64,000 bases of DNA, taken from contig JAUTDP010000010.1 in assembly GCA_033439795.1 (NCBI GenBank), forward strand, positions 2,418,001 through 2,482,000, in the 5' to 3' direction. The first letter of the stretch is position 1. Every line of letters starts with the position of its first letter. A program made the position numbers and the translations under genes. Positions 18,601 through 64,000 of the stretch are shown one piece after another. This DNA is from Sordaria brevicollis (lineage: Eukaryota; Ascomycota; Sordariomycetes; Sordariales; Sordariaceae). The notes below the pieces were generated by a model, which was not told the origin of the DNA, did not search any database, and worked only from the letters and a program-made list of their open reading frames with translations.

Positions 18601-18950
18601 AAGCGAAGAGTTCTTTCTTCATTTAAATAAGAACGGAAGTAATTAGCTTTAAAGCCTTCCTTTTTTAAAGGAGAATCCCCGATATTAATACCCCTATTTA
18701 TTTATATAGATTAAAATAAAAAACGTTTTATTATATTATATTCGAATATCTCTAGATAGTAAATACGTAATTCGTAATAACCGATTAATTATAAACGTAA
18801 AAATAATTCTAAATTTATTTAAACGATAAAATTAAAGCCAAAAGAATTTTATTATAAATATTTCGGTTAGGACGATTAAATAAATACCGTTTAATAATCG
18901 AATTAAAAGAGGAGTAGCGAAATAAATTCGTTCGCTATTTTTAATTTTCT
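15690..18950 (+). pseudogene. decayed LINE ORF2 (APE endonuclease + reverse transcriptase) relic
   Basis: A single plus-strand frame shows the endonuclease segment (Y-S-P followed by R-F-P-L-F-E-F and then T-V-G-D-F-N-F-Y-Y-P-D at about 15879-15912) and, 1638 bases on in the same frame, the RT catalytic box G-F-A-N-D-I-N-I-V-A followed by E-A-N-K-T-K-L-I, typical of non-LTR reverse transcriptases. The first catalytic Asp has become Asn, a G-to-A change expected from RIP on the opposite strand. In-frame stops are TAA/TAG. Ends are approximate. Confidence 0.8.
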
Positions 18951-20671
18951 TTTCTTCCTTTTCTTTTACTTTTATTTATTAATATATTAAAATAAAGATA
19001 GGGGAAGATTTTTATTTAATTAAGAATTTATTAGGCCGCGGAAGTAATAATTTATTTAATTATTATTTCTTTTTACGATTAATTAAAACCTTTAATATTT
19101 TATTATTATTAGCGAATAAATAGTTCTATTCGTCGAATTAATAAATATATTAGCGTATAATATTAATTACGAATTAACGCTAAATGAATTAATTATTATT
19201 AATAGGAATAAGACCGGTAAAACGAATAGCTAGCGAATTAATTTCTATCGGAGAGCTATTATAGGAAGGTATACGAATACTATTATTATTCGGGGGAATT
19301 CTACCGCTACCATTATAAAATAAATTACTATTATTATTACGGGGCAAACTATTATTATTATTATAAGGGATATTATTTAAAAGAATATAACTACCGATTA
19401 AATTATTTTTATTAAAAAGGAGGAATTTACAATAACCTTTTTAAAAATAATCGTTAACTAATTACTTTTTATAGTAAATAAATTACTTAAAGGTATTAAT
19501 AAAGCCGTCGTTAGCGAAGCGAAGGCGAATTATATTAATAAATTCTTTAATAATAATACGGAGGCGGATAAAATAATCGCGGAATTCGCTACTAATTAGG
19601 TCTTTATTAACGACTTTCTCTTAAAAAGTATTACAGAAATTATAAAAACCGTAAAGTATATCGACTATATAATATAAAACCGTTAAAATATATTAAATAG
19701 CCTAATTAAATTTATTTAAAAACGAATTAAAATAAAAAACGTTAACGATATAGAAAATAATAATTTATTCGGGTAATTAGGGATATAATAAATCGATTTA
19801 GTAACGGCCTTTATATAAATATTATAACCCAGGATAATTAGGAAGGAGAAAAGGACTTTAATTAATTAAAGGGTATAAACGAAATATAAAAGAATATAAA
19901 TACGGCTTTAAAGAAATTAATATAAAGATAAAACGTAACGGAAGGAGGATTTACCCTTTCTCTAATATATAAAAGAATTTATTATTAATAAAACGTTTAA
20001 TAATATATTCGAAATTAATTTTAATATCGGTATTAATTATATTAAATATAAAGGTCGGTAAAAGAGGGCGAAAGGGAGACGAATTTTCGCCCTTATCTTC
20101 GTTAGAAATTTTTATTATTTTATAGAACGTTTTAACGTATTTTTAATAAAGAGTAACTATTTCGAATTAATTATTATTATTAAAGGAAGAAAAAACTTAA
20201 AAAGGCCCGGGGGATAAAGGGGTTTTTATATTTAAAGGAGGGAAATCTTTATATTAATATAAATTATAGTAAAAACGTAATTATAATAAAAGGAGGAAGA
20301 GGATAAAAAGAATAAAAGAAAATTTAATAATTAAGAAATTTAATAGCGGTTAAAAGGGTAAATAGGTAGAAAAATAGAAAGCGGAAGGTAATAGCAAATA
20401 GGGGATAGAACGGCGGATTAGGAAGGTAAAGCGGTCTAATATTCTAACGTAACGGTAAATGGAAGGGATAAGACGGATATTAATCGCGTTGGCGGTAAGT
20501 ATATACTACGATCGTAAAATACCGAAGAAGCGGCGCGGATAGGTCCACGCCGAGAAATATAGCCGGGGTTTTTATCCGGGGCGCTTAACGCCTACGGTTT
20601 CATCCTACGGGGAATCGGAGATAGACCCCATGCTATATTGGCGCTATAGATTTAGCTAAGGAATAAGAATC

Positions 20672-36779: not shown

Positions 36780-39700
36780 ATGCCACCCCTCCTTGGCGAT
36801 TTACCCAGTTTTGACTCCGACTCTGGTTCCGTCTCTGGTTCCGTCTCTGGTTCCGTCTCTGACGCCTGCCAGTACACTGATACCGACTCTGACTCGTACG
36901 ATGAAGATGACTTTTCGGATTCAGATTTTGAAGATACACATATCCCCCCTACACCGATCATCAGACCGCCTTACACGTTAATTAGACTACGATTCTTACC
37001 AGCCATGGTACTCCCTCCGCTTCCTGATTTGGCTTGCTGGTGGCGAAATGTGGACCCCAGCGTGTTTGAGCATAATCCCGATAAAGCCTTGGATGCTTGG
37101 CTTGACTATTTGCATGAAGTCAGGAATGCAGGGTTTACATCGGATGAAAAGTTGGCTGAAGGGAAAGAATACATTAGATGCCTTCGGCGTGCTCTGAAAA
37201 CTGGCCGATGGTGGGCATGGATCGGCCCAGAAACAGAAAAGGGGTTCCAAGACATGATGAAACAACTAAAGCAGTGGGAGGCTATCGGAGCAGTGGCCAG
37301 GAGTGCACAGGACCCAAAGAAACTGCTGGATACAGAAGAAGAACAGAACAGTGGGCGCCTGGGACAACGGTGGTGGGAGCAAGTCAATCCACAGGATTTC
37401 GAAATTGAAAACGACCCAAAGCCAGTGATAGCGGCTATCGCCGGGGATATAAAAAGACTCAGAGATCGAGGGAGAATGTCCCAGGAAGATGTGACACACT
37501 CCTACAGAAATCTGATTGCTTTACGCACCGCTTTGGATATCAGGAGTGGCCGGCTTTCGAAGGATGGCACGGTTTGGGGAGAGACGGATGTGCAGGAGAT
37601 GGTGGAAGAATGGAAAGCATTGGAAGCCCTTGTAAGGCTGCACCGCCGCGACCGGGAAACTCGAATTTTGCGAAAAGAAAGGTATTACCTCTGGGACGCC
37701 GATGTGGTTGGGCAGGCACCTGTTGCTGGCTAGGAGAAGGGCAACAAGACCGGGACCAAGTGGGCTTTGGTGTACCAGCGATATCAAGATTTTGCGCGTG
37801 AGTTCGTTATTCTGGCAAAAAACAATCCTCGTTTCGCGGGGAAAAGTGAAGAGACAGGCTATCCGTTGGGTGTTCAGCTCACGGATCTAGAGGATCTCTT
37901 CATCGATAACTACGAGATGGCGAGTGAAACGAACGACATGAAGCGGAAACTAAACGGCGTTCTAATTGCGCGTGGACAAGGCCGGCCGCCATGTGAGAGA
38001 ATTGACGAACCACTCGATAGACATATCAAAGCGGTGCTAGCGGCCAAGCCCACCGCCAACACGAAATCCGGTGCTCCCCTCCATGCTCCCCTCTGGTATC
38101 AAAATTTTGTGGACTGGTCAAAAAAGCTCCTCGAGTGTGAGGCACTCGAGGTCTACAACTCAGCGACCGGAATAGAATATGTGGACGTCAACCACAAACT
38201 ATTAGGCGAGTTGTTGCAAGCTATGGTCAACGTGGAGGCTGACCTGGAGGATGCCAAAAGATGCTAGGAGCATGTGGAAGCCGAGGGGCTGCCTCCTCAG
38301 CAGAAGGGGAAACAGCCGCTGCGTACTCCACTGCCGACGGTGCCAGAGGTGTCTAACGACGGTGAGGATGACGGGGCAGAGGGAGGGGGTGAGGAAGTGA
38401 AGCAGAAGAAAAAGAAGAAGCCCAAAAAGAAGTCAACGAAGAAAAAGAAGAAGAAGAACATGCCGGCGCACACTAATGAGGTCGCACAACATAAGGAGGA
38501 GGAGGAGGCGGAGGGGGCGGAGGAGGATGCACAGGCTGAAGACGACAAGAAGAAGGACGAGAAACAGCTTCAAGACAACGACGATTTGAAAGATTCCTCG
38601 GACAGCGAAAACGACGGCAAAGAAGATGACATCAACAAGAACCCCGTCGAAGATCAAGACCAAGACCATGACCATCAGGCTGGACAACCACAACATGAAC
38701 CACAACCACAACCACAAGAACAACAACCACAAGAACAACAACAAACAGGACCAACTAAGAAAAGCCAAGCCAGAAACGCCAAGAAGAAGCGCAGAAAAGA
38801 ACGCAAGAAGGAGTCGGAGCGAGAAGAGAAAGACAGGTTGGAGCGCGAAGCCCTCGAGAAGAAAAAGGAAGAAGCCAAGATCAAGAGGGAAGCTCAAAAG
38901 CAAAAAGAAAAAGAAGAGCAAGAGAAGCTCAAACACAAGGAGGAGCTGAGAAAGGCCCAGGAGGAGAGAGCGGCGAGAAATAGGCAAGCAGAGCAGGAAC
39001 GGAAAGAGGCAGAAAAAGAAGAGGCGAGAAAAGCGGATGAGAGGATATTTATACAGAGGGCGGAAGAGCACAGGAAAAAGTTGAAAGAGGCGGCGAAGGA
39101 GGCTAAGGAGGCTAAGGAGGCTAAGGAGGCTAAGGAACGGGAGGAGGAAAAGGCAAGGAGGGATAGACAGGTGAAAGAGGACGGGGAAATGGCTGCGATG
39201 ATGGCGGAGGAAATGGCGGCCAAGGGTGCGAGGGAACTGAAGGAGGCGAGAGAACAGGAGGAGGCGAGGAAGGCGGGGAAGGTAGAGGAGGTCAAGGAGG
39301 CTGAAGAACGGGAGGAAAAGGCGAAGAGGGATAGGCAGCTGGAGAAAGAGGCCAGGGAAATGGCTGCGAAGGTTGCGAAGAAACAGGAGGAAGAAAAGGC
39401 CAAGGAAATGGCAGCAAAGGTTGCGAAGGTTGCGAAGGAAAGGGAGGAGAAAGAGGCCAAGGAAATGGCAGCAAAGGTTGCGAAGGAAAAGGAGGAGGCG
39501 AAGCTGGCAAACAAGGCAAAGGAGGCAAAGAAACAGGAGGAGAAAAAATCCGCGAGGGAAAAGCTGGAGAAAGAAAAAGCGATTCCTGAGCCTCCTGCAA
39601 CCGAGATTCACAAGGCGGCGGAGCACCAGCAGAAGCAGCCAGTAAAGCCAACGTATTCGCAAGCTGTACGGAAGGGCAAGGCTGGCGTGCCAGGAGAGCA

Positions 39701-42700
39701 GTCGTTACCAGCTGTACCACCGGCTGACAAAGATAATGCGCCGGAGGAGTGGCCAGCGCTGCCGGTGAAGAAGATGCCGGTTAAGGTCCAGATACCTCCC
39801 AAGCCTGCCCCTGTGTGGAGGCGGGATCCTCAGCCGGAGGAGTGGCCAGCGCTGACGGTAAAGAAGGTGCCGGTCGTACTCCAGATGCCTCCTAAGCCGA
39901 TACCGAGGCGGGATCCTCAGCCGGCCGAGGTCCAGATGCCTCCTAAGCCGACACCGAAACAAGCTTCTAAGCCGACACCGAAGCTTGCTCCTCAGCCGAC
40001 ACCGAAGCAGGATTCCAAACCAGCTCCGGAGCAAGAACCTCAGCCAGTACTCAAGCAAGAGCCTCAGCCAGCACCCAAGCGGGAGCCTCAGCTAGTACCG
40101 GAGCAAGATCCCAAACCACAGCCGGAGCAGGAACCTCAGCCAGAACCGAAGCAAAATCCTCAGCCAGAACCGAAGCAAAATCCTCAGTCGGCACTCAAGC
40201 AGGAGCATCAGTCATCACCGGATCGGGAGCCTCAGCGAGAATCGAAGCAGGATCTCCAACCACAACCGAAGGAGGAGCCTCAGCCAGCACCGGAAGAGCA
40301 GCAAGTGCCTCCATCGTCGCCGAAGCAAGATCCCCAGCCAGCACCCAAGCAGGAGCCTCAGCCAGCACCGGAGCAAGATCCTCAATCATTACCGGAGCAG
40401 GAGCCTCCGCCAGAAGAGACGCAGGAATCGCGGCCAGAACCGAAGCACGATCCCCAGCCGACACCAAAGCACGATCCCGAGCCACAACCGAAGGAGGAGC
40501 CTCTCCCAGAACCAAAGGAAGATCCTCAGCCAGAACCGGAGCAGGAATCGCAGTCAGCACCGGAGCAAGATCCCCAACAACCTGAAGTGCCGCCGTCATC
40601 ACAAATTGTACCATCGGGCGAGTCTTGGTTGGTAGGGCAGCAGCTCACGACTTCACCGGAGCCAATCTCACCACTGGCTGGAGAGGATCAAGTGCCGAAA
40701 GTGAGGCTACCACCGACTATACCAGAGAAGTCGACCGAAACCCAGATTCCCCACACGGAAACGAGCGAAAATCTTCAGTCAGCGCCAAACCAAAATCCTC
40801 AATCGCCTGTACTGGTGCCATCACAAAAACAGATGCCAGAGCAACAATTTCCATCGCCGCCGCCTCAATATCAAAGTCCTCCATATCAAAGTGCTCCACC
40901 TTACCAGCCCTTTCAAAATCAGATACCACTCCCGCTTCCCGGACCATACCAGAACTCGTTGGCATACCCGAATGCGCCGCCATACCCGTCTTTCGGACCA
41001 CACCAGAATGTGCCGCCATACCAGTCTTTCGGACCATACCAGCCTCATGGGCCACGCCGGTCTCGCGGGCCACGCCAGCCTCACGGGCCACACCGGAACC
41101 CGCTGGCTTACCAGATTGCGCCGCCATACCCGGTTCCTGGACCTCATCAGCCTCCCGGACCGTACCAAAATCCGTTGGCATATGAAGTTGGGCCGTCACA
41201 CCAGTCTCCCGGGCCGTACTATTATCCCCAGCCAATGGCATACCGGGGTCCGATGCCGTAGCAAGGCCAGATGCCGGGACAAGGACAAATTCCCTCGCAG
41301 AGTCTGAACCCTCCGCAGATATGGCAGCCTTCCCCTCCGAGACAAGAGCATATTCCGCCACCACCTCCCTTGGAGAGACCAGTTCCTTCTCAGCCACAGC
41401 TCCAATCTCAAGGTCAGCTTCAATCGCAACTTCCAAGTCTCTCCCAGACACTGACTGATCCGCAAACAGATACATTCAAAGATCCATCCACTCGCCCTCC
41501 CGCCATCGTAGGACGTCCTTCCGCTCTACCTAAACTCGTCGAGCACCTCTCGCACGACATTAGCGACATGATGCAGTCTCTTTATGCAAAAGATGACCAC
41601 CTCGCCAGCCTTCCGCAGCAATCCAAGCAGCTTCTCTTGGGCGAACTCACAGATATTTGTAGTAAGCTTGTGTGGGATTTGGTGGCTGTTCAGGAACCCG
41701 AGCAGAAACCCGAGCAGAAACCCGAGCAGGAACCCGAGCAAGAATTGGAGCGGGTTATATCGAGAGGTCATTCAGCTTGTTCAGCTCCCGGTGTTTGCGG
41801 GGTAAGGGAGACGGATCCCTTTCAGTTGCAGATGGATAACAGAACGAGGGCCAGGTCACAAGACAGGCTAAGTTGGCCGGAAGTTGTTCCCTCGAAGAAG
41901 CCGGAAACACAACAGCCGGAAGCTCAACCTCTACAGAAAGATTGGGCGAAGCTTCCCGTGTTTTCAAATACCTCGTCGTCCAAGGAGGAGAAACGGTCAC
42001 AAGCAGAGTCACAGTCACGGCAATCCACGTCGTTCCAAACGGATTGTCAGACTGAGATTGGCAGTTATTCTCCTCCTGCTCCTCCTCCTAAAGAGGATCC
42101 TCCTCCTCTTCCTCCTCCTCCTCCCCCGCCTCCTCCACCACCTCCTCATAAAGAGGATCCTGAAGAGGACAACTTGAAAGCCACCACCGCAGAACCCGAA
42201 CCCGAACCCGAGTTTTCTGCGCTCCAGTCTGCATACGAGCATTTTATGGTTCCTGAACCCGCTGTTCGCTTCACTGAGCACCAGAGTACGGCGAGTCCGC
42301 AGGAGCAGCACGAGCACGGAGGGAACTTGTCTCTGACAGTCCAAAGTCAGATGCAACCAGAAGAGAAATTGCAACAAGAATTGCAACAAGTTGAGTTGGA
42401 GCAAGCTTTAATACGAACATTTCAAGAAGCCCGAGTGAAAGAGGCACAACTTTACGGAGCATTTCGAGCAATAATGGAAGAAGAAGAAGAAGGGGTTCAG
42501 CCAGAAGACATGAAACAAGCCCTGCAACAAGAAGCATTGCATCAAGCAGAAGTGCACCAAGCATTGCGGCAAGCGGAAGAGAAACTAGCAGCATTCTACC
42601 AGGCAAAATCGCAACAAGCCTTGCAACCAGCAGAAGAAGAGCTACAGGCAGAAGAGCCACAGGCAGAAGAGCAACAACGAGCTGAATTGCAAAGACAAGC

Positions 42701-43553
42701 TGAACTGCAGCGACAGGCTGAACTGCAGCAACAGGCTGAACTGCAGCGACAGGCTGAACTGCAGCGACAGGCTGAACTGCAGCGACAGGCTGAACTGCAA
42801 CAAGCCTTGCAGCAAGAAGCATTGCATCAAGCAGAAGTGCACCAAGCATTGCGACGAGCGGAAGAGAAGCTAGCAGCATTCCACGAAGCAAAATTGCAAC
42901 AAGCCTTGCAACCAGCAGAAGAGCTACATGCAGAAGAGCGACAAGCAATCAAACAAGCAGCATTGGACCAAGCACAGCTTGAACAAGCGCTGCCAGAAGC
43001 ATTGCGGGAAACATTGCATGAAGAAAAGCAACAAGGAGCAGAGCAGCAACGAGCAGAGCAGCAACGAGCAGAGCAGCAACGAGCAGAGCAACAACGAGCA
43101 GAGCAACAACGAGCAGAGCAACAACGAGCAGAGCAACAACGAGCAGAGCAACAACGAGCAGAAGAGCGACAAGCCGAATCGCAACAAGTTGAATTGCAAC
43201 AACCTCCATTGCAACAACTATTGCACCAAGCACTACAACAAGCTGGATTGCCACAAGCATTGCAGCAGCAACAAGCAAATTTGCCAGAAGCAGGATTGTC
43301 ACAGGTATTGCACCAAGCATTGCAACAAACAGGATTGGCACAAGCTTTGCAAGGAGCTCTGCTGGAAGTATTGCAAGAAGCTGGGTTGCAACAGCAAGTA
43401 GAGGAGGAGCAGCAACCAGCTAAGGATCATCATGCTAAGGAGCAACAAGCAGAGGAGACTCCGATGCAAGAACAGGTAGAAGATGATGATGATGACTCGC
43501 AACTGCTCGAGCTCGAGGTTGATTTTGAAGGGAAAAGTCGTTGGTTTTATTAG
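36780..43553 (+). CDS. giant low-complexity K/E/P/Q-rich protein, frame broken by three in-frame TAG codons
   Basis: One plus-strand frame of 2258 codons, from ATG 36780 to TAG 43551, contains only three internal stops, all TAG: 37731, 38265 and 41259. No frameshift is seen although much of it is repetitive. The order is a Ser/Asp-rich start, two tandem copies of a roughly 113-residue module beginning with Trp-Trp (37033 and about 37371), a third non-repetitive segment (37734-38264), a long Lys/Glu/Ala coiled-coil-like stretch (about 38390-39590), a Pro/Gln/Glu repeat region (39770-40600), a Pro/Tyr/Gln-rich part, then Gln/Ala/Glu repeats (42510-43400) and an acidic end. No family recognised. 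Each TAG could be a C-to-T change of CAG, or a site read as Trp after A-to-I editing. GCCATGG at 37003 is an alternative start. It may instead be a young pseudogene. Confidence 0.6.
37033..37640 (+). repeat. two tandem copies of a ~113-residue coding module
   Basis: Copy 1 begins W-W-R-N-V-D-P at 37033, copy 2 W-W-E-Q-V-N-P at about 37371. Both continue with a Y-plus-R/L-rich helix, an A-L-K-T-G-R / A-L-D-I-R-S-G-R step and end M-K-Q-L-K-Q-W-E-A-I / M-V-E-E-W-K-A-L-E-A-L. The similarity is at protein level only, so this is an old internal duplication. Confidence 0.7.
42514..42935 (+). repeat. coding direct duplication plus 18-bp units (Q-A-E-L-Q-R)
   Basis: A segment of about 130 bases (Q-A-L-Q-Q-E-A-L-H-Q-A-E-V-H-Q-A-L) at 42514-42640 recurs at about 42800-42930 with few changes. 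Between the two copies (42684-42800) lie six to seven 18-base units encoding L-Q-R-Q-A-E. Confidence 0.8.
43036..43165 (+). repeat. 15-bp coding tandem repeat (Q-R-A-E-Q)
   Basis: Eight to nine near-identical units of GAGCAGCAACGAGCA, five codons each, so copy-number change keeps the frame. The units differ only by G/A in a CAG/CAA codon. Confidence 0.9.
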
Positions 43554-47148: not shown

Positions 47149-49099
47149 GGTGACGACGGTATCCTAGAGGTATACGTCTATGTCTATGGGTACCTTAGGA
47201 AAAGGGAACGGAGGGGAGGAGAGAGAGAGAGACGGGGTAAGAGCTCTGGAAGGCTCGAGGGTGGTCGTCTCACGGTTCCCTTATAACACACACACACACA
47301 CGGTCACGATGAAGCAAGAGGAGCAAAAGAGGACGAGGGTAACCTAGGACGAAGTGAAGAGAGGAGGGGTAAAAGATGATATTATGAACAAGGCCAAGCA
47401 AGGCGTGCTAGTAGGGCCGGCACCGGCCTGGACTTGGCGTTGATCCGGGGAAGTCTAAGAAAAACGGAGGAGGGAAGTGGAGGTTGGGGGTCACGGAAAA
47501 CAAGAAAGTGACGTCGTTGAAGTTGCAGGATGGTGTCCGTCTTGTCTCGGTCCGTAGGTGGGAGACACGCGGCCGGAGGGAAGGAGATGCGTAGTCCTGC
47601 CTAATCTTATGAGTCTAATGTAGAGATGAAGTGTCTGTCACTTGAAGACAAAAAGAAACTGAAAAAAAAGAGATGTTCGATAGAGTGGCAGCGAGGTGGT
47701 TGAGGCGAGTTTCTTTCACACCCTCTCTCACACACAGGGAGGCATTCCTCAATGGAACTCGACCTTGTTGCCGTCCTTGTTCGTCACTTGACGTCCTTCT
47801 TTCGAGTCTCGGCCACCACCAATACCAACCTCTCCTTGTCAACGAACCAAACAAAAGTCTCCAATTGAAACCAAATTGACAAATCCCTTTTTCCGTGGGG
47901 GTACAGAAGAGAATCTGGGGTAATAGGTTGTGCTCTGTGATCTTTGGCCGGTCTCTGAGGAAGTTGATTCGGGAAGGAAGCAATGAACATGCAGTCAGGG
48001 TTGGAGATCAGGGAGATGTTGTTGAACCATTGAAAGGTTGGCAACTGCAATGGCACTCTGGCACTGTAGAGACACCAAATCAGGCATCCCGTTGCCAGCC
48101 GCAGGGGGCAGGTGATGGCTACAATTCAGTGTAGCGTCTAACATTACCCCGCTGTGAGCCGCCATTCCACTTTCAAGGCCACCATTGCACATGCACCACT
48201 GGCACCGCAGCGAACCACTGCAGGAACTCGAGGGCGAGTTGACGAGGATCGGAGCGAAGGGTGTTCATCCAAGGAAGTGATGGTGAAAATCTGTTCGCTT
48301 GGTTCCGAGCACGTGATATCCGACGAGTTGTGATGAACTGTTGTGAGTAAAGAGTTTTACTGACGATGTGATAAGAGTACCTAGCTGACGGCCAAATCCG
48401 ATCCGAGATAGGACCTTTGCTGATGAAGAGTTTTCGAAGCTGAAGTGGAAGCGGGCTGACGCTCACCATTCCCAACTTGAAGATGGTGTTCTTGGTGTTT
48501 TGCCCTGTGAAGCCTGGAACTCGCCTGGAATTTGCGCCGGCTCGCACTGAGGCTGCAGCAATGGCGCAAAACAAAATGGAAACTGGTGGAACCAAGGTGG
48601 GACCCTGCCGGCCGGCCCCGCTCTTCCCCGGTTGGCCGAGTCTTTTGAAAGAGTTCAAGTTTCGAGACACAGCAGATTGAAAAGGTGGTGAGACGGCATC
48701 GACTGTCTCATATTTGCAATTTGACAAGTTGATGTTTGAAGAGCATTTCAAGAGTGCACCTTGACCGAATATTAGGCGAAAAAGGCATCCTCGAAGGAAT
48801 ATCTATCCAAGAGGGTCTCATATGCCCAGTCTTCATTTCTTCAGCTGAAGAAGCAACAAGACATCACAGTCACATGCACTATTTCGTCCAATATCAAGAC
48901 TCTCAACCTAACCCAGTACAACTAGATACAAGTCTCTTCTCAAGACTCAACTCCAACCTTGAAAGAGTCCGGCGTGAAGAGAGAATCAAGAGACTTCAAA
49001 ACTTCAAACAACTTCCCGTACCCCTGGCCCATTGTTTAGGCGCTTTGACCAGGAGTACCCGGGTTGCCCCGCCATCTGATCAGTTACTACTTACCTAGT
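47149..49099. other. intergenic region at the edge of the AT-rich block
   Basis: Normal composition until about 49080, then an abrupt change. It contains a short (CA)n run near 47285-47301 and the probable leader of the MFS gene. Open frames such as 48736-49098 lack coding-like composition. No RNA gene recognised. Confidence 0.4.
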
Positions 49100-49120
49100 T
49101 ATATAGGGGGGTCGTAAACG
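49100..49120 (+). repeat. left terminal inverted repeat
   Basis: TATATAGGGGGGTCGTAAAC, at the exact point where sequence composition changes from normal to AT-rich. It pairs with the inverted copy at 60494-60514. Confidence 0.65.
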
Positions 49121-49888
49121 GTTTGCAGACTAATAACGAACTGTTTATAAAAAAATTTCTATTATGTAAATAAACCGTACTAGCAACCCTTTAAAATTTT
49201 TGAGCTGTTATTCCCCTAAACAAATATTTTAACCTTAGTAGTAACTATTATGAACAATTATAATAAGTTATATATAACCACATTAACAATTAGTCAAATT
49301 AACTACTTATCAACATAGTAATTACAAAAAGTAATAGTTAACTTAGCACAACGTTTACAAAGATACTATAATAACTAATTATTTATTTATAAACCGATAA
49401 AAAAAATAATTATAATTAAGTATAATTATTTATACTATTATAATTTATATAGGCGGCTTTATTATACAACCGTCAACTAGGTTAATTATTAATAAGTATA
49501 ACCGTCAATTAGGTTAACTTTTAATAAATATAACCACTTAAACCGTTACCGGTTATTTAATTTAATATATAAATAAAATAATTATTATAAACCGAAATAA
49601 TTATTTAATACAATTATTAAATATAGTAATAGTTATTTATAATTATAATTACCTTTTTTAATAGAAATTTCAAATAATAATTAATATAAAAAGGGGTAAT
49701 TAAAAATAACCGTTATATAAAATAACCGTTATTAAAAATAATTATTATATAAAATTATTACCAAATTAAATAATAGTAAGCATACTTATCGGCCGGATAG
49801 TTTAATTACGTATAGAAATATCTAGGGGTCCGTATATATTATTAATTCTATTATAATAGGTATTACTATCCCGGCCCGATTCCTCCCG

Positions 49889-50080
49889 CTACCCGGCTAG
49901 CTCTAATTCTAACTCCGGGTCCTACTACCCGGCCGGCTCCAACTCCAATATATACTACCCGGCCGGCTCTAATAACTTTACCCGCTACCTAGCCGGCTCC
50001 AGCTCTATCCAATACAATATACTACCCGGCCGGCTCCAATTCCAGTATATACTACCTAGCCGGCTCTAATACTATAATTT
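49889..50080. repeat. GC-rich ~30-bp minisatellite inside AT-rich DNA
   Basis: Six units start with CTACC at 49889, 49925, 49955, 49985, 50022 and 50052 (spacing 36, 30, 30, 37 and 30). The core is CTACCCGGCCGGCTC followed by a CAATTCC-like and TATATA part. The units lack CpA, which can explain why they stayed GC-rich under RIP. Confidence 0.8.
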
Positions 50081-50559
50081 ACTAATAAATATTTAATAAT
50101 TAGAATAACGGATAATATATCAAGTAATTATATATAATTAGAAGGTTAATAAGGAAATTTATAAAGGAATAAACGGAATAACGGAGAAATTTAATTTACG
50201 TATATTATATAATTATTTAATATAAAACTAACTATAATCGCCAATTAACTAATTATAATAAATATAAATTAACGAAATAATTTATTAAAAATAAACGGAA
50301 TTAAACTTATTTAAGTAAATTATATATACTAATCGATAAATAGCAATTAATTATTCGGTATAAATTCTACCTCTCTATTTAATTGCATTTTACGGATACC
50401 GTTAATAATTATAGTAAATAGCACCATAAATAGACCGTTATTACCAAGTACGGGTAAATTAATAATCTCCTAAGAACAATTCTCTAAAATATCCGCCTAA
50501 TTTACATTAATACTAAGTTTAACGATCTATATAATTAATAGACCGGTTAAAGGCTCCGA

Positions 50560-53500
50560 TTTACTATTTACGGACACGGGCTTAACGATAAAGAAAATAT
50601 AATATAACTTACCGGACTAGGTACCTCCTCCACCGTATACCCCCTATAACATTATAATTATTAATACGTATTACGGTAGTTTGTATAGTATTAAGTGTTA
50701 AAGACGCGTTTATTAATATCCGCATTATACGTAAAGATGTAATTTAGCCGCGCGCGTATTAAGGTATTACTTACTCGCTAATAAAAAATAAATTAGCCTT
50801 AGTGGAATATCCGTTTACGTTTACCGTTTAAAATACTAAGTTATATAAATTAGTATAATCAATATATTTCGGTATGCTAAGAGTTAGTAAAGTTATACTT
50901 ACTTATCGTTAAATATTACCTTTTTTGTAAAGTTATAAGTACGAGAGGGTGAGAGTAGGTCGCACAAGGTAGGTCTATTCTAGGAGAAAGACTTTAACTT
51001 GGCCAAATATAAGTCTTTAGTTAGGAGCTATCCTCTTTTATACTTATACGCTTCCCTGTGGGTCCGGAACGGTCGGCGCCCGGACTCCGAAATCCTTTCC
51101 TCTATATTATATCCTACTATCTTTATCTTATCCGCTATTTTATCCGTCGTCCTAAGCCACTGTGCCCTAGTTGTACGGGTCCCCCTAAGCCTTCCTAGCG
51201 ATACCCTTACATTTTTCTACTATAGAATTTACTAATTCCTTATTATAATTACGTTACGGCTATACTCTTACTAGTATATTCGACGCAATATTACTCTAAA
51301 TATTATAAATATTTATTAATTACGGATAGGGAGGCCGTATATATTGCGGTATACTTCCGCTTTTACTTATATTAGCGCTTTAATATTTCTATAATCGTTA
51401 TTAAAAATAATATCGATAATACCCGTCGACGGATTATTATTATCCTCCGCGTCCTCGGGTAATAAATTCTTATACTCTAAAATAATATTTAAGAATAATA
51501 TTGGTAATATCCCTCTCAAATTCTTTAAACGTATAATCATTTCGGGCTTATTAAGGATAAACCCGTTTAATAATAGGAACCGGATCAATTATATTATATT
51601 CTCGTACAATAAATAATCCTTCTCGGGCTCGCGGTAATTCTAATATATTATAATAAGCTTCTAAACTCTATAAATATACTATTAATACCGTCCGAATTAT
51701 CCATACGAAGAACCGCCCGGTATTAAATAATATAAATAAAAGCGCGAATTGTACGAAATTAAACTAAATTAAAATACAATAATATAATAATTCGCGTTTA
51801 CTACCATTATAACGCCACTTATTTTAATCTATATACGACTAGGCAAATACCCCCAATTAATAGAAACGGGAAATACCTAATAAACCGCCTATCGTACCCT
51901 TGAATTTATTTTTCACCGCACGGTATAACTACCTATCTCTAAATACTTAATAACATTAAAAATTATAAACGAAAATTCGGAATAACTTACTTATATTTAA
52001 ACTCTCCTAATAATACTATTATTAATCCTAAGAAACTATATCGACGAAAAATTTCGAAATAATATAAACTAATATAAACGTTTAATATACCTACTTATTT
52101 ACAATATTTAAACGCTTTTTAGGAAATAGATAATACGCTAATATTAATATTGTTAACTATAATAACCGTAATAATAATAATATTATTATTATCGATTATA
52201 TCGTTAATATTACTAATAGGCTTATTAGCGATAATAAAGCTTCCCGGCTCGGGTTAGGGTATTATTAATATTATTAAACGAAAGCTTACTTACGAACCGG
52301 CTAGCGCAATATTCTTCCGTCTTCCACTTCGTCGTTTATTAATAATATTACCGGTAATTACCTTTAATATTAACCGAATTATAGCCTCGTATAGTAATTA
52401 AAATATCTATTTATTAGTCCGAATTATTATATAAATATATTAATATATACGTTCTTCGGCCCTAAGGGACGGCGCCGATAATAATATATTTAATTTAATA
52501 ATCCAAACTAATATAATAATTAAAATATTAATTATAAACGGATTCGTACCGTATATTATGCTAATATAATTAGTAATTTCGTAATCGAAAGTATTTTCGC
52601 TAATTCTCAATATTAGGATATCGAAAACCCCCTATATTCTTCGAATAAATTTAACTTTAAGGTCGGTTTATTTTAATTAAAATAAACTAACGATTATTAT
52701 TAAAATTAACTATTAGGTATACTTTTATAGGCTATATATTTTATAATTAAATAATAATTATAAACGTTGCCAACTTGGATAAAACGGCATTTGCCGCAAA
52801 ATTTTAACGTAGCGGACTACGGTAATTGGTTTAAATACCGAATTTATTAAAATAATATAAAAATTATAGCTAATCCCTTTAAATTTAGAATAGGCAATAT
52901 TACTCGGACAGCTACAAATTAAATCTAAAGCTAGGGCGATATAGCGGATAGCGGGTAGTTATAACGATATACTATACGTAGTATAGAATTTCTTCCTTTC
53001 GTTGACCTTCCGTATACTATCGAATTCGCGCCGGATTCGAATAAACTCGAAATAGCCTTATAAAAATTCGACGTACGAATTATTAATATTAGTTCGCTTA
53101 TCGGCAAGGATTTTATATTCGCAATAACCAAAATTAACTATTATTTCTATAATACTATTATTCTCGTTCTATTAGGGTATATCTCTAATAAATACAATAA
53201 TCGGAATATATAAAAATATTTAAAAATATTATATATTAATATTATTAATAAATATCCGTTATAATATTTAATTAACCTTCTAATTATATATAATTATAAT
53301 ATATCCTCTATCTAATACGGTTAATAATTCGAATACTTATATAACCTCTTCGAAATTCGACCTATAAGGGCTTAAAATAACCGGAAAGATATTAATCCAC
53401 TTAATATACTCTTACCGGGGCAAGGCAGCAATTTAAATATATAACCCTATAATTAATTTAGTTATTAATCGATAAAGCCCGAAGCTATCGTTATATTGAA

Positions 53501-55450
53501 AAATAAGTATAGAGTATACTATATTATATTTTTAATATATAAATTTATTAATTAATATTTATCGGCTAAATTCCTAAACTTCGAATTTACTAAGTATTAG
53601 CAAAACCTTATAAATTAATATTAACGCGCTATTTATATTAAAAAATATTCGGCGGATTATCGGCGAATTGTATATTAAATTATTATCGAACGTAATATAA
53701 TTACTATAAATATAATCGAATTTAATATTAATAGGGCCTCGTCGAATTTTATTTAAATCGACTAACTCTAATAGGTCGATAAATAAAATTAATTTATTAT
53801 TTAATTCATTCCCGGTCAATAAATTAATATCAACTTATTTACCGGCCAAAGTACGAAGACTAATAACGCGAAAAACGACCAAAATAATATTACCCTTTCG
53901 GTTATACTATATATTCGACGTAATCGGAGGAATACCCGGCCATTCGACTCCTAAAAATCGAAATGTACGCTAATTTTAATATATAATTCGAATTTACCCG
54001 AAATGCTACTACTAATTCTTCGGGGCTATACAATCTCGTAAACGGTAGTAACGTATATAATCGATATATATATACTCGAATTCGATAAAATCCCTTAGGA
54101 ATATTAATTACCTAAAGGAATTATTAATAAATAAAAGGTAATATATAAATTCATTATTAATAATACGAATCGAATTAGTTTAATACGTATTATATTATAT
54201 TTTTATAAAATTATTTACAAAATTAATAAAATTATAGTATATCTTTTTAATAAAATTCAATAATTATAATAACTGTTAATAAATATCGATAGGATCGAAG
54301 ATATAAAAGTTTTAAATAACTATTGACGATTGCCCGAAGCCCCTCGACCGTATTATTTCCTTACGCGACGTAAATAGCGACTTCGGGTTAAATACTAAAT
54401 TTTTAGCGGTCCGTATATCGAAATATAGTAACGCTTCGCGTATATAACGTTTTAATATTTTTAAATTCGATAGTATTTTATTTAACTCTTTACTTCTAAC
54501 CTACAGGTCGCGTTTGAAAATCCGGAAAAGTTCGATATAGATAGCGTACTATTTACTCGAAATACTATTAATTATATATATTAATCCCTATTCGAATTAA
54601 AAATCTATTAGATTATAATATCATTAATATTCGAAATTAACCGATTCGGATTTAATAAATTCGGAGTAAACATCTATATTTAGTTCGATATCGTTTAGAA
54701 GCGTAGCGGTAGCGGTAACGGCTTTATTACCAATATTATTATTAAAGCCTAATTAACCTAAATTATCGATAATATTTTCAACTTCCGAATTATCGACTTC
54801 GTCGTTATATACTTTAATAGGATTTTAATAATCAATAAGGATAGGAAAATCTTCGGCGTTAATTATATTATCGTTATCGTCGTCGTCGTCGTTATCGTCA
54901 TCGTTATCGTTATCGTCGTCGGAATCGGAATCGGAATCGGAATTAGAATCAGAATTAAAATCGGAATCGGAATCGGAATCGGAATCGGAAAGCTATATTA
55001 AATAATAAATATTAATTAAATAATATATATAAATATAATAATTAAATAGCTTAATTAACCGTCGATTAATTAAGGTCGCCGTAATTATTTCGAATAGCGG
55101 GATTGCGGTTAACACCATTATTTAATAACGAAGTAAATAATAGCGACGAAAAGGACAATACTAATAAACGCTAAAGAATAACTATAACTTCTACTATTAT
55201 AGGGTTATAATTATCTCCTCTACTTTCGTCTTTATCCTTATTTTTATCCTTATTTTTATTCCTATCTTTAAATTATAGCGGATTTACTCGAAATCGTCGC
55301 GGAGGCTATCGGTCTTTATTATTAGAATCGTTATCGCATTAGGGCCGTTTATTCCTTATTTTATCTAAAATTATAATTAAAATACTTATCGCTATCGTTC
55401 GTTAAAATATAATATTAGGTTTAACGCGGCAATAGAATATAAAACGCTAT
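50560..55450 (-). pseudogene. decayed transposase-like gene (minus strand)
   Basis: Reading the minus strand and taking TAA/TAG as former Gln, long protein-like stretches appear: an N-terminal charged part (about 55400-55150), a Ser/Asp then Asp-rich repeat (54990-54880), a helical part (54600-54300), a middle (about 53820-52900) with F-G-Y-C-E-Y-K-I-L-A-D-K-R (the Tyr residues may be former Cys) followed by G-Y-F-E-F and an L-P-A-I-R-Y-I-A-L-A-L-D block, and a C-terminal part (51590-50950) that is locally open. A plausible intron with ACTAAC and TTAG survives near 50880-50930. The pattern resembles a large family of fungal transposase-like proteins with an N-x-G-C-R-x-C motif, recalled from family knowledge. 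Ends are approximate; several introns are likely. Confidence 0.5.
54880..54990 (-). repeat. Ser-Asp / Asp-rich coding simple repeat
   Basis: On the minus strand, GATTCC-type hexamers encode repeated Ser-Asp, followed by a GAC/GAT-rich run encoding Asp and Asn. It lies in frame within the decayed gene. Confidence 0.75.
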
Positions 55451-56128
55451 ATAATAATAGGCGTTCTTTCTTCCGGTTCGAATAAAGAAAGAAACGAATA
55501 AATCGGTTTTTTTTTTGACGTCGTAGGTAATATTCTAAACGAATCGAAATTAATAAATAAAAAAGAGAATTAAAAAAGCAATTAAACGGGAAGAAGAAAA
55601 AAAGGTAATTATTTAATTCGATTTAAAATTTTTAAATTAGGTAGTAACTATAAGCGGGGTAATTCGGAAGGAACGAAGTAATTCGCTAAAGGAAAGTACA
55701 ACGGATATTTAGCAATTAAACGGTAAATACTCTATTTAATACGCCGCGGTATATAAAGCCGCGGTCGGTCTATTTAATTTTATTTACATAATAAATTTAA
55801 CGCGTTTCCTTATATAAATTTACTAAAACTTTAATTAATTAATTATTAATACCCAATTAAAATTACTATTATATATTTAAATTTAACTAAAATAATACCT
55901 TTTAATTAAAACGACGCCCTATTTAACCGACCGGTCGACGTAGTATATATTTACATTCTATTAACTTAAATATAGCAATATACGCCAACTTCCGATATTC
56001 TCCGAATCGAACTATAGGAATTCAACGCTAAATTTATTCTAATACTAAACCACCGACCCGCTATTCTTATTAATAATATTACAATTATTAACGAAAATAA
56101 GGAGGAAATAAACCAATATATTATTAAT

Positions 56129-56318
56129 ATCCCTACTTAATAGCCGAACCTTATTAACGCGCCGCCTATTTAAATAGAGCCTCCAGTCGCTTTTCGAGCC
56201 ATTTTTAACCGTAGCGTAATTAAATCCCTACTTAATAGCCGAACCCTATTAGCGCGCTACCTATTTAAATAGAGCCCTTAATCGCCTTTCGAACTATTTT
56301 TAATTATAATATAATTAA
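56129..56318. repeat. 95-bp tandem duplication diverged by RIP
   Basis: Copy 1 (56129-56223) and copy 2 (56224-56318) both begin ATCCCTACTTAATAGCCGAA and end TAATTAA. Most differences are C/T or G/A, the change RIP makes. Confidence 0.8.
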
Positions 56319-57099
56319 ATTTATAATTACGGCTAACTTAATACTAAAAGTCTCTTTTATATTTATTTCCTCTTTTACGGAATAGTTTATTTCTTTTATA
56401 ATCCAATTATTTATTATCCTAATTAATAACCTAACGACCCTTAACTTAACCGGATTTATATAAATTAGAAATCTAATATTAGCAATCCCTATAAATAATA
56501 CCGACGTATTTCTCTACGATTTTTTTACTAATACGGCTAAGGGATTATAATTTAGATTACTAATCTAATTCGTCGAATTATATAATTATACCTCTACTTA
56601 CCTTAATTTACATTAATTTATTAAAGGGTATAATTATACTTTACCAAATAAAATAAATAAAATTAGAAAAGGTCGATTAATTATTAATAATAATATATAG
56701 AATAAATAGAATTAGAATATCCTAAGAAAAGACTAAAGATTAATATTTAAAAACTATAAAAGAAAAAGAGAGAAAAAAAAAAAAAAAAGAAAAAAAGACG
56801 GCAAATAATAACACACACAACGGACGACGCGTAGGCGGGAGGCAACCAAGCGACTTAAAAATTCACTATAGTATTAGAATTATTATTATTAACGGTACTA
56901 GAGGGGGCGATACTAGGGTTGGAAGCCGAACGACGGATCTTAGCGTAGGCTATTATTATATAATATAATTATTAATTATAATAATACGAACGAATATAAT
57001 ATAATAATAATAATATATTTAAATTAACGTTAATATCCTCTTAAATCCTCCTCTTAAGGGTATAACGACGGCCTACCCTCTCGAAGACCTATTTAAAAT

Positions 57100-58900
57100 A
57101 CCGGGGCCGAACGTACTTAAATTCTTAATATATTACAATTATTAGTAAATAAATTCGAATTTATTTATCCTATAATAGATTTCGTTAAATTAATTTACCT
57201 TTATAATAAATTAGATTATTATAAAACTTTAATATAATTTTACGGCGGCCGGTACTAATTACTTCAACGTCTTTACCCGCGCGTAATTCAGCCTCCATTT
57301 CCCAATAATATTCGGCTACTTTATAAGCGATTAATTTGAAGAATTCTATATAATACCTATACTATTAATTAAGAATATTATTTTTTTTATTAATTAATAT
57401 ACCCTCGATATAAAATTATCCTACCGGATAGGAGTTAATATAATCGATACGGCCCCGCATTTAAGTCTAAATTTTTTTAAAATTCTAAATCGATTACAAT
57501 TTATCTATTTTATTACGAAATTTATCGCTATTAAAAATAATAGCGGGATTGAGGATATTAATATACAAAGGGTTTTAGGCGTACGCGCGGAAGAATTATT
57601 AGAAAAATAATAATATTAACCATCTAATTTTTTAACTATAAATTATAATTAAAAAGGGAACGAAAGATTAAAAGAAAAAAGTAAATACTTACTTCTATTA
57701 TCTTTAAAATATAATTCTTATTATACTTCCCCGCATTTATTAATACCTTACGGGCCTTTTTATATTAGGAAGAGTATTTATCGATATCTTTATAAATAGA
57801 ATAAATAATTTAATTATATAAATTTATTAATATTCGATATTATTAAATAGGAATTAAATATTAATCCTACTTTCTCCTCGTACGCCGGAATATTACGGTA
57901 GTAAAAAAAGATTTACTAAACCGTTTTATTAGAAAGTTTATCGTAAAAGCTTTATTCCTCTTCGATAATTTTTTTAATTTAAGCCTAAATAAAACCCTAA
58001 TTTACTAAATCTTCGGATTTATAAATAAAGCCCTTACCCTTCTTACCCTTATAATTTTAGTAGGCCTATATAATAATTAAGCTTATAAATAATTACTACT
58101 TTTTAATCTATAACGAGTAATTAACAATATCGATTAATATTATAATAATATAAATTAATATTTTAAAACCAATTACGGTAAGAATTTATTTTATTAATCG
58201 ATTAACCTCCTCCTCCTCCTTTATTAACCTCTTCCCCTTCCTCTTTTACCCTACCCCTAACTTCCTTTTCCTCCTTATCCTCCTCCTTTACCCTACTTTT
58301 AATTATTTCTTCCTCTTCTTTATCCTCCTTTATTACTTCTTTACCCTTAATTTTAATTATTCGTTCTTTAGCCTTAACTTTAACCTAAACCTTAACGAGT
58401 AAATTATTTATATATTTAATATTAAAGCTAAATTCGTCCTTCTCTTTATTTAAGGCCGGATCGATCCCGAAGTCGGAATTAAAAGACTCTAATTCGTCGG
58501 CGAGATTTTCCTTTATAAATTACGCTTAATAAATTACGTTAACTTTATTACCGGTTTTATAAACCGCTTAATAAACGGTTTTAGCCTCCTTTATTTACTA
58601 TTTATATTCGCGGAATTTAACGCAAACGTCCGTAAACTTACTTACCGGTATATCGCCACTCTTTTTTATATCTTTAATTTCGGTTTAATACGTATAATAA
58701 TCTTTAATTATTTTTTTATATTCGGTATATAATTTCCTTATTTCGCCGTCGGCCTAATCTATATTCTTCTTAAAATCGTTAAAAGTAATAAACTTTTTAA
58801 CGAAGAAGGGGATATAGGGTAGGGAGGGCAAGGTAGGCGGAGAGGGCTAAGAAGGCTAAGAAGGCTCGGCGGCGGCGGAGGGCTTATTAAATTGAAATAT
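57100..58900 (-). pseudogene. decayed charged coiled-coil-like gene (minus strand)
   Basis: From about 58890 downward the minus strand reads as Pro/Ala-rich then Lys/Glu/Asp-rich protein interrupted almost only by TAA/TAG. The best-preserved part is about 58800-58210 (for example E-L-E-S-F-N-S-D-F-G-I-D, then a Lys/Glu repeat). A probable decayed intron separates it from a second stretch at about 58080-57850. Not assigned to a family; same strand as the transposase-like relic. Boundaries approximate. Confidence 0.5.
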
Positions 58901-60493
58901 TATTTATATTAAATATTATAACGATTAATAAATTACTATAATTCAATTTAAATACGGTTATAATTAATAATAGAATATTAACGGAAAGAAGGCGGCGAAT
59001 AAATAATAGCGTTTTAATATTAGAATATTCTAATATTTATAATATTAGCTAACCGAATAATAAAACGACTGTACGAATATAATTTAAACGAATAATATAC
59101 CGAAAAACGGCGGACTAAACGTTAGAGATTTATAATTAATAGTAATCTAAATATTACGAAGAACTTGAAATATAATTAATTTGAAGCTTATTTAATTATT
59201 ATCGTTATTACTATTATTTATAATAAAGTAACGTAACGTCGTATACTATATATAATTTAAATATATTCACCGAACGGGCGGGTGGCGATAATAATAGCGG
59301 CGAAAGGTTAATTACTACGGCGGCTATAGAAAAAAACAAGAATAAATTCAATTAATTCGAGTAATAGAGTATAATTTTAATTGTAATTGAATTAAAATTA
59401 TATAGGGGCGGCGTTGTAATAAATTCAAATAGAAGGTACGCCTAAACGAATTATTCCTTCCCAACCAAATCTCGACTATTACAATATCCTAATTCGGACT
59501 GGCGCATAGACAACTAAATAGTTATTTCGAAATTAACGGTTATTTCTATATTAATAATTATATTAAATTATAATTTTAATATATAATAGTTATAAATATA
59601 TTAACTGTATATAAATTATAATGCTAATAAATAATTCAAAGTAATAATAGCCACAAAAACCAATTAATAAAAGATAGTAATTTATATTAACTATATATAA
59701 CCTACCGACTAATATAATAATAAAAATAATTTTTGTCCGCAATAATTATATATTTACTAATACCGACTTAAATTAATTAATTATAATTATCGGTTTTATT
59801 AAAGAACCAAATTATAAATCAATACTTAGCGCTATAAACTATAACCAAATAATTACAATACTATAAATTTAAATAATTATAAATATAACCAGCCGTTCAG
59901 ATTATTTACCGCCAAAATCCAATGAATTGTCAATTAACGGTCTATAAATAATTAACCTAAATAAAGGAAAACAATATTAACTACCCAATAGAATAATACC
60001 CAAAGAATAACCAACAATAAATATAGAATCTATGAATAATTAAATAAATCGACGGTTAAGAATATTAATTATTAAGTAGAATATTTATTAATAATTATAA
60101 ATAATCAAACCATAATTTTCCAATAGCCAATTGAATTAATAGATATAGATATTAACCACTACGTAAGATATTTATTAATAAAAAATAAACTATTAAAAAA
60201 TAGTTGGTAGACAATTAATTAAAATAATTATAAATCTCGTTAATATATTGGTAATTATAACCGATAATTTGAATCAACCGAATTACGATAGTTCTCTAAT
60301 AAATAAAAAGTTTATGGCGGATTTAATATAATTGTTTTGTTGGGCTAGTATTAACGTATTAACTTTTTAAGGTTAAACTATTTATATATAGTTTCTTGCA
60401 TATAACCGTTATTCGAATAAAAGTGGATTTTTGTAACGGTTTATTGAATTAGCGATATATATATAGATATTTATGAGTTAACCGTTGTGTGGA

Positions 60494-60514
60494 GGTTTGC
60501 CACCCCCCTATATA
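60494..60514 (-). repeat. right terminal inverted repeat
   Basis: Read on the minus strand from 60514: TATATAGGGGGGTGGCAAAC. It is the inverted partner of 49100-49119, with one C/T and one C/G difference. Confidence 0.65.
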
Positions 60515-60849
60515 TCCCGCTAAGTATAGCATCACCAATTAATAATTAGTCTCTTCTATAAAACCTCCGTCCACGGCGCTCAGCGGACCCACCTTATAAA
60601 ATGTGGGTTTCCTCTCCTCGAATTTTAATAAGAGGAGGTCTATTACCGTTTTACGTAAAATGGCCGTCGGTTGTCAAAATATATACGAATATTCTCAATT
60701 CCCGTAATATATTTATCAAATACTTATTATTATCTTACCTACTATACGTTTTTTTAATTCTTAATTATTATAGTAAATATAACGCTAATAAGATTTTCCG
60801 ATTTATCTTTTTTTTTTTTTTCCTTTATTCAATATTTATTATTTTTCGT

Positions 60850-62640
60850 TCCTTAAGGGGTAACCCCCGTCGATTACACTTACTTACTTTTAAGAAAGGA
60901 ATATAATATTTCTACGAATCTTTATCTAAATACTTTAAAAATTTCCAAATATTATTATAAATATAAATCCTACCTTCGATGAAATTTTGGGGTTTATAAA
61001 ATTATTCGAATTTAATTAATCTCTTACTATTTTATTTATATTATCTCTCAATATTTAAATATATATTATAATTATTATATAATATATAACTTTAAACGAA
61101 TATATATAATATTAAACTTACTTTATTCGTATTATAATCCGGATTCTTTTAAATCCGTTTAATTATTTTAATTCTAATCGGTAAATACGCGAACTTCAAT
61201 TTAAATAAATTAAATATATTCGGCGTATTATTTATTAATATAGTAATATTATTCTTATTATTATAATTAATTTTAATAAAAGTATTATATTCCAAATTAT
61301 ATCCATTATCCTTCTTATTAAGATTATACTTTAAATTATCCTTCTTAATCGTTTTAAATAAAAGTAATAGGATATTATTATTAAATATCCTAATACTAAT
61401 CTTCTTTTAATAAACTAAAATCTTTATAAAATAAATATTTTATCTATTCGAAATTTAAATTATTTATTAATTAATTTAGGGCGATATATTTTAAAATAAT
61501 ATATACTTAGGCAAATTTACCTATATCCTCCTTAAACCCGAATAAATATTATATTATTAGTTTTTTAAATTCCTTTACGAATATAAATTTGCGTTTAGGA
61601 TTACATTTATTATTATTAACGAACTTTATACAATTTATTAATAACGTGAATTTTATTTATACTTCTCCGATCTTTTTTAATTATAGCGAATTTTACCCCT
61701 TTCTATTCTTTAATTCGGGTATATAATAATATTAATTAAAATATCCGAAATATATATTCGAAAATACGTAGGCTTTTACCTATTCGGATAATTTATAATA
61801 TTCCTCTAAATTATTAAAGTATTTATTAATCGTCCTAAAATTATATTTATTTTTAATTTTATCCTTAAGAACGAAACGTAAAATTTCGAACGGTTGGAAT
61901 TCCTCTTCGTTCTTATATTTAAAAATATATTGAAGATTATTATTTATATCGATAATAAAAATCTTATTAATAAAATAAAGAAGTATTTAATTGAGGTATT
62001 TATTAAATATAATTTATAAAGCCGAATAAATACGCCCTTAATTATTTAAATCTATTATTTATATATCCGCCTATTTAATTAAAATCGCCTTTACCGATAA
62101 TTTATTATATTAGATTCGTAATACTGGATTGTTATATTTATAATAATATTAAGAATAGGTATAAATATATTTAATATATAACGTATCGTATAATATAATT
62201 AAATTAAATTAAAAGATATCGCGGATTTATAATAGCGCTTCGGACGTACCGTATATACCCCTAATAATATTTGTAATATTATATACTTTTTCGCTCCCTA
62301 TTAGTATTTTAATTAATTTAAGACCGATTTCGCTCTATTATTTATACCCGCCCCGCAATACGTCGAATTATCCTATATATACGAATTTAATTCGTTATTT
62401 ATATTAAACGATTTATTTAATTTTATATAATCCTAGCCTTTAAACCGGATTTTAATTTCGCACTTGGTCGAAGATCCAATTTTTAATATTTTTCCAATTT
62501 CGGGTCTCCGCCCGCGAAAGTAAATAAAATCGGAACGAGAATAGCGGGCTAAATTAATTAAAGAGGCCCTTAATATATATATTATTATTAACGTCCTTTA
62601 TTTCCGTAAAATTTTATTTAAAATTATATAATATAATATC
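60850..62640 (-). pseudogene. decayed minus-strand gene of unknown class
   Basis: The minus strand reads as continuous protein-like sequence with stops TAA/TAG only, for example R-A-E-T-R-N-W-K-N-I near 62510, L-R-G-G-Y-K near 62350, K-N-E-E-E-F-Q-P-F-E-I-L-R-F near 61890 and C-N-P-K-R-K-F-I-F-V-K-E near 61590, ending with L-P-L-K-E-R-K near 60850. I do not recognise the family. It could be a second transposon gene or the start of a neighbouring element. Confidence 0.45.
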
Positions 62641-63709: not shown

Positions 63710-63819
63710 AATTACTATAATTAATTAATATTATTTTCGTATAAGCGAAGGTTAATTGAAATTTAATTACTATAATTAATTAATACTATTTTCGTATAAG
63801 CGAAAGTAAATTAAAATTT
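63710..63819. repeat. 55-bp tandem duplication
   Basis: Copy 1 (63710-63764) and copy 2 (63765-63819) share AATTACTATAATTAATTAAT and TTTTCGTATAAGCGAA. The differences are mostly transitions. Confidence 0.8.
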
Positions 63820-64000
63820 CTATTTCTATAAAAGCGAAACTTATAATTTAATTTATTATTATATAATAATAAAGTTTATAATACTACCTAAATGAAAGGC
63901 CAAACCGAAGCCGCCGATTTAAATAATTAGGGAATTGCTTAAGGCTACAATTCCGAATTTAAACCCCAAATCGGAATATATTAATAAAAAGGATATTAAT

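Follow-up and report, generated by a model that had tools for sequence, protein, structure and literature searches.

An interrupted reading frame of 2258 codons

A 64,000-nucleotide stretch of Sordaria brevicollis DNA (C2:2418001-2482000 of a genome assembly of 53.08 Mb in 27 contigs; hereafter the window) carries on its forward strand a reading frame, 36780-43553, that extends from an ATG at 36780 to a terminal TAG at 43551 and comprises 2258 codons including the last stop. The frame is interrupted by three internal stops, all of them TAG (37731, 38265 and 41259, here TAG1 to TAG3), and by no TAA, no TGA and no change of frame, so that it would encode 2257 residues if each internal TAG were read as an amino acid (Table 1). 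Here we consider whether these stops are sites of RNA editing.

Table 1. Features of the interrupted frame and of the gene that precedes it
Feature	Position	Strand	Description
Histone deacetylase, HOS2/HDA-2 type, 499 aa	35163..36662	+	same frame; ends in TAG 36660, hairpin-loop probability ~0.8
Open linker, 39 codons	36663..36779	+	same frame, between deacetylase stop and ATG 36780; CT-rich tract inside
Interrupted reading frame	36780..43553	+	2257 residues with internal TAGs read through
Segment 1, 317 aa	36780..37730	+	acidic start, then two W-rich repeat copies, residues ~87-174 and ~198-286
TAG1	37731..37733	+	hairpin-loop probability 0.96; preferred flanks 4/4 free positions
Segment 2, 177 aa	37734..38264	+	
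TAG2	38265..38267	+	hairpin-loop probability 0.99 (0.38 with 100-nt flanks); preferred flanks 4/4
Segment 3, 997 aa	38268..41258	+	K/E/A-rich, then P/Q/E-rich 24-base repeats
TAG3	41259..41261	+	hairpin-loop probability 0.99 at 30-nt flanks; preferred flanks 2/4
Segment 4, 763 aa	41262..43550	+	P/Q-rich, then Q/A/E/L-rich repeats of 15, 18, 54 and 57 bases
Terminal TAG	43551..43553	+	hairpin-loop probability 0.07; preferred flanks 1/4

Coding potential was scored in six frames with a codon model trained on long open frames from 18 sampled loci (10,918 codons). Frame 0 was the best of the six in segments 1, 2, 3 and 4, and thus on either side of each TAG, and the 600 bases past the last stop scored low in all six; in parts of segment 1 the margin was narrow (-0.021 versus -0.054 for the best reverse frame). 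The tryptophan-rich repeat pair of segment 1, R1-R2, is a clear internal duplication (score 82, z 10.3), and a further internal pair, R3-R4, gave P 0.07. Between repeat copies, the ratio of nonsynonymous to synonymous differences (pN/pS) was 0.48-0.66 for segment 3 and 0.27-0.61 for segment 4, which points to past constraint at the protein level in both. The motif EEWPAL is repeated in segment 3 (39740-39860), where the repeat profile of segment 1 also matches.

A Pfam scan of segments 1-4 gave no family above the cut-off and no zinc finger. Residues 1-495 gave one match in the PDB, which at E 1.1 was at chance level and was set aside. A literature search on NCU02795 (hda-2 of N. crassa), NCU10987 and stop-loss editing with histone deacetylase found no account of this gene, the 2017 PNAS list of edited N. 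crassa genes lying outside its scope.

To gauge how unusual the arrangement is, we counted frames joined by bridging one stop, with at least 150 (or at least 100) codons on either side, in the window and in 20 other 10-kb loci. At the 150-codon limit the window contains four frames joined by TAG (the three internal stops and the deacetylase stop at 36660), two by TGA and one by TAA, compared with two by TAG and two by TGA in the 20 loci; two of these loci had been picked for deaminase genes, and one of those two contains one of the two TAG-joined cases. The TAG excess is absent at the 100-codon limit (window: six TAG, five TGA, three TAA; 20 loci: six TAG, 18 TGA, seven TAA). The joined frame 36780-43553 is itself unusual beyond chance. 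One-step routes to a stop within it number 543 for TAG, 422 for TAA and 142 for TGA, and with routes weighted for transitions three of three nonsense changes would be TAG with P 0.107; the uniformity of the stops is therefore weak evidence. Given three nonsense changes, the probability of zero frameshifts falls from 0.35 to 0.03 as the assumed ratio of insertions and deletions (indels) to substitutions goes from 0.03 to 0.15, and the missing frameshifts add moderate weight. With frameshifts counted, three disablements that are all TAG have P 0.038 to 0.004 over the same assumed ratios.

Hairpin loops and flanking bases at the internal stops

Fungal adenosine-to-inosine (A-to-I) editing sites have been described as preferring a U before the A and a position in a hairpin loop when the RNA is folded with 30 bases per side (PMC4817773; PMC11156358). 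The loop is reported as a strong preference, found at 62% of editing sites (PMC4817773). This rule was known ahead of our loop test, in which the 61-nucleotide (nt) fold window was taken from PMC4817773. The hairpin-loop probabilities were 0.957 at TAG1, 0.993 at TAG2 and 0.99 at TAG3, and 0.067 at the terminal TAG, with a sampling spread of ~0.02 between repeat runs. For background we used 1605 of 3370 TAG sites on both strands of 18 other loci, those with a local GC of at least 0.45. Their mean was 0.32, and 12.4% of them reached at least 0.95, which gives P ~0.0019 for three out of three. When TAG was substituted in silico for the frame's 126 CAG and its 24 TGG codons, the mean loop probabilities were 0.39 and 0.35, respectively. 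The summed loop probability of the three sites had P 0.006, 0.002, 0.001, 0.009 and 0.005 at flanks of 15, 20, 30, 40 and 50 nt (full range 0.0014-0.0094; 600 background sites), and a cruder count by the best single fold gave P only 0.035 for the three internal TAGs. At 61 nt, all three are predicted to lie in hairpin loops, as is typical of the PUK1-like edited genes considered below.

The flanking bases provide a second measure. Editing sites in Fusarium are reported to carry C or U at -2, A or G at +1, +3 and +4, and G at +2 (PMC9600606). Scored at the four free positions (-2 and +2 to +4), as a preference and no requirement, TAG1 and TAG2 have the preferred base at all four, TAG3 at two and the terminal TAG at one. 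The flank score of the three internal sites had P 0.0058 against TAGs of the genome, and loop and flanks jointly had P 4.5e-5. When the frame's own 543 one-step precursors served as the reference, the observed value for loop and flanks was reached in 0 of 200,000 draws.

Comparison with known edited genes

The genome also contains counterparts of genes for which editing has been reported. A kinase search returned 144 matches (123 of 171 candidates were scored), among which five were listed with TAG as the sole internal stop; of the four that we inspected, three look like introns read through. The fourth, L005 (G000:C25:2612000-2615000; loop probability 0.76), has a kinase domain in which one motif reads D-TAG-TGG-S, the usual form of this motif being D-W-W-S. 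From its sequence, L005 is likely the orthologue of PUK1 and NCU03242. NCU03242, the PUK1 orthologue of N. crassa, is reported to have the same TAG-TGG arrangement and to be edited in perithecia (PMC4817773). PUK1 of Fusarium graminearum and NCU03242 share with the interrupted frame an in-frame UAG, a U before the A and a predicted hairpin loop, but in PUK1 the kinase domain is conserved and editing has been measured, whereas the frame has three spaced stops, is largely low in complexity, found no relatives and is placed here by prediction from sequence. F. graminearum is reported to have 69 more PUK1-like genes in which editing corrects a premature stop (PMC4817773; review PMC11156358). The frame has in common with these genes an in-frame UAG with coding sequence on both sides, and interruptions that UGG would restore.

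A second known system is OLD-ZAO, an antiviral editing module of N. crassa in which a premature UAG is reported to be corrected to UIG with a preference for a loop and a U (PMC12754623). The premature UAG and both preferences are shared with our frame. ZAO, however, is a zinc-finger factor encoded beside its deaminase gene, whereas no zinc finger was found in the frame and the two OTT_1508 deaminase genes of the genome are on other contigs; on these grounds we rejected the frame as part of such a module. About 2 kb from one OTT_1508 gene lies a frame of 540 codons interrupted by a single TAG (L008, G000:C12:625000-634999, minus strand, offset 7545-9165; loop probability 0.98) that resembles N. 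crassa zao by position and layout and, by eye, has a Cys/His-rich end. By analogy, both the L005 kinase and this ZAO-like candidate may be edited in this species. The two may also be indirect signs that the species has the sexual-stage editing system, as may the similarity of its deacetylase and its mS35 to Neurospora proteins, described below.

At a third locus, L009 (G000:C1:1000001-1010000, minus strand, offset 1698), frames of 367 and 274 codons are joined by a TAG with preferred flanks at four of four positions and a loop probability of 0.62. The joined frame appears coding-like by eye and is a candidate for a further edited gene, in a locus picked for other reasons.

Proposed sexual-stage editing and alternative explanations

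We propose that the interrupted frame is probably a new, unusually long gene of the known class in which UAG codons are corrected to UGG by sexual-stage A-to-I editing. It would be a real gene, present as a single copy in the genome, with an mRNA that carries three UAG codons. The middle A of each UAG would be deaminated during the sexual phase by the tRNA-type machinery described in Fusarium, Tad2-Tad3 with Ame1, and the codon would be read as UGG (Trp). Translation would end after about 317 residues in vegetative hyphae, and in fruiting bodies transcripts with all three edits would yield a 2257-residue, largely low-complexity protein with a tryptophan-rich repeat region near its start. We infer the editing, its stage and the full-length protein alike. 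Our guess is that the product would be a large, scaffold-like, mostly disordered protein of ascus or perithecium development.

An earlier note on this DNA had located the frame and its three TAGs without TAA, TGA or frameshift, and had suggested that editing could give a continuous protein of about 2257 residues in fruiting bodies. On recheck its coordinates were exact, and the length is 2257 with the TAGs read as amino acids. Its argument from stops that are all TAG without frameshift holds as a description of the pattern and carries less force than was claimed, given the P of 0.107. The editing reading itself has gained indirect support from the loops at all three sites, from the flanks at two of the three and from the PUK1-like TAG-TGG kinase in the genome.

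If the proposal is true, a very large protein would be turned on only through repeated RNA correction, and its full-length yield would be set by three editing levels at once. The gene would then be well suited to deciding sharply between selection for such stops, which would keep hyphae free of the protein, and mere tolerance of them. Moreover, the locus suggests that fold and flanking-base rules could single out candidate edited genes in a genome sequence by themselves.

Several observations weigh against editing or lessen its support. The loop at TAG3 fades in longer folds, to 0.46 at a flank of 40 and 0.01 at 75, and that at TAG2 drops to 0.38 at 100-nt flanks. The flank P is partly post hoc, because the full flank rule was read after the flanks had been seen. 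An alignment of the repeats hints at Trp at TAG2 only weakly, with rank 2 of 222 for the two shorter flanks and ranks 5 and 6 for the longer ones; the shuffle P was 0.025-0.10, and TAG2 was outscored by a site at residue 453. The repeat pairs behind the pN/pS values overlap and may be older than the stops. Both homologue searches scored just the candidates with most words in common, in a database that includes Neurospora proteins. The read-through full-length query, whose low-complexity words crowded the search, found one match only, covering 6%, and residues 1-495 found no homologue at E up to 1, with only proteins of ~272-866 residues within reach. AlphaFold, run on 447 residues as a single sequence, gave no usable fold (mean predicted local distance difference test score, pLDDT, 37.9). 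Pfam gives the L008 frame sub-threshold zinc-finger matches only; we therefore term it a candidate and hold the editing reading slightly less firmly.

The doubt that is left about editing falls mostly on recent nonsense mutation. A gene disabled by three independent ordinary point mutations to TAG (from CAG, TGG or other codons), with its decay just starting, is a rather unlikely source of the pattern. Three TAGs can arise together by chance at the P of 0.107 given above, zero frameshifts are not rare if indels are few, and TAG3 lies inside a glutamine-rich stretch where a CAG ancestor is plausible. However, recent disablement leaves the three hairpin loops and the two full editing contexts, with their joint P of 4.5e-5, unexplained, and stops that are all TAG without a frameshift fit it poorly once frameshifts are counted (P 0.038-0.004). 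Strongly RIP-like AT-rich blocks lie elsewhere in the window, and the earlier note had offered repeat-induced point mutation (RIP) at CpA as its alternative to editing, but the raised TpA/ApT, depleted CpA and TpG and repeated sequence that mark RIP-mutated DNA are all lacking in the frame. In the frame TpA/ApT is 0.55 and (CpA+TpG)/(ApC+GpT) is 1.52, compared with values of 1.15 and 0.11 for the AT-rich block at 14-20 kb; no second copy was found in 53 Mb, where residues 1-495 (as protein) and 36900-38300 (as DNA) match themselves only; and 126 CAG and 150 CAA codons, 276 for glutamine in all, are still intact. RIP would survive only with a lost duplicate and extremely light mutation. We therefore give it almost no weight and consider it a very improbable origin of these stops.

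Two further explanations were considered. The gene structure may be mis-modelled, the TAGs being spliced out with introns or marking the true ends of separate genes. We listed candidate introns 45-400 bases long that combine a GTRNG donor, a YTRAY branch point and a YAG acceptor (weaker donors were unscored). Six of them span TAG2, and two of these, 37993-38379 and 38137-38379, are canonical and keep the frame, which is a further point against editing at this site. An in-frame ATG starts 9 bases past TAG3. TAG1, however, is spanned by one listed intron, which shifts the frame, and TAG3 by none, and frame 0 is still the best coding frame either side of each TAG, so that we regard a mis-modelled structure as improbable. 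UAG readthrough or a suppressor tRNA, at which no search was aimed, would give the long protein at all stages and appears very improbable. A CAA codon after a stop is part of a leaky readthrough context, and CAA does follow TAG3, but TAG1 and TAG2 are followed by GAG, which is not known as a leaky context after UAG, and readthrough leaves the placement of the stops in loops unexplained.

The upstream deacetylase

The deacetylase that precedes the frame shares 96% identity with a protein labelled Neurospora tetraspora. Beyond what the earlier note had described, its TAG at 36660 is in frame with the ATG 117 bases on: upstream of ATG 36780 the frame continues without a stop back to 36663, directly after that TAG, an arrangement that may be due to chance. 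Stop-loss editing of normal UAG stops has been reported in 323 genes of F. graminearum (PMC4817773) and at 47 sites in protoperithecia of Sordaria macrospora (PMC5381528), and the deacetylase stop would belong to this class if edited. In that case editing at 36660 would fuse the deacetylase to the frame through four UAG-to-UGG events, giving a sexual-stage protein of almost 2800 residues, and the interrupted frame would be an edited-in C-terminal extension of a 499-residue chromatin enzyme, with no gene of its own. We find both the fusion and the loss of the frame's own gene status improbable. The loop probability at TAG 36660 was 0.80-0.92 in one run and 0.74-0.91 in another, with a single-site P of 0.11-0.37, and 39 open codons follow the TAG in 424 of 1588 background TAGs. 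A shared frame and an open linker would thus occur together by chance about once in eleven (one third x 0.27), and for this reason the fusion is possible and not favored. In 12 other fungi, picked from a list of 120, the HOS2 protein stops at the same place, which makes TAG 36660 a normal, conserved protein end. The 39-codon linker is ambiguous in the codon model (-0.118 versus -0.141), and the CT-rich tract before ATG 36780 may point to a separate promoter or 5′ untranslated region.

Neighboring genes and other features

The neighboring genes of the frame encode a UGPase, an ING-PHD protein and the deacetylase. The mitoribosomal protein mS35 has 246 identities over 278 aligned positions with chain 6yw5_ZZ, which we take to come from N. 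crassa. A WW-domain frame of 1132 residues, ~36 kb past the end of the interrupted frame, is possibly the gene so (NCU02794 in N. crassa). In N. crassa, NCU10987 is reported as one of three genes hit, with so/ham-1, by a 30-kb deletion (PMC10580951).

AT-rich blocks at 14000-20000 and 49000-64000 border a gene-rich island; their GC is 0.18-0.32 per kb and their indices are strongly RIP-like. Within an AT-rich block, 56111-56320 is a 95-base tandem repeat of ~2.2 copies, with a GC of 0.35 versus 0.31 and 0.24 in its flanks. At 7224-8288, a frame with FHA and kinase domains, presumably of the prd-4 type, ends in TAA and is followed by open frame, perhaps reflecting an intron.

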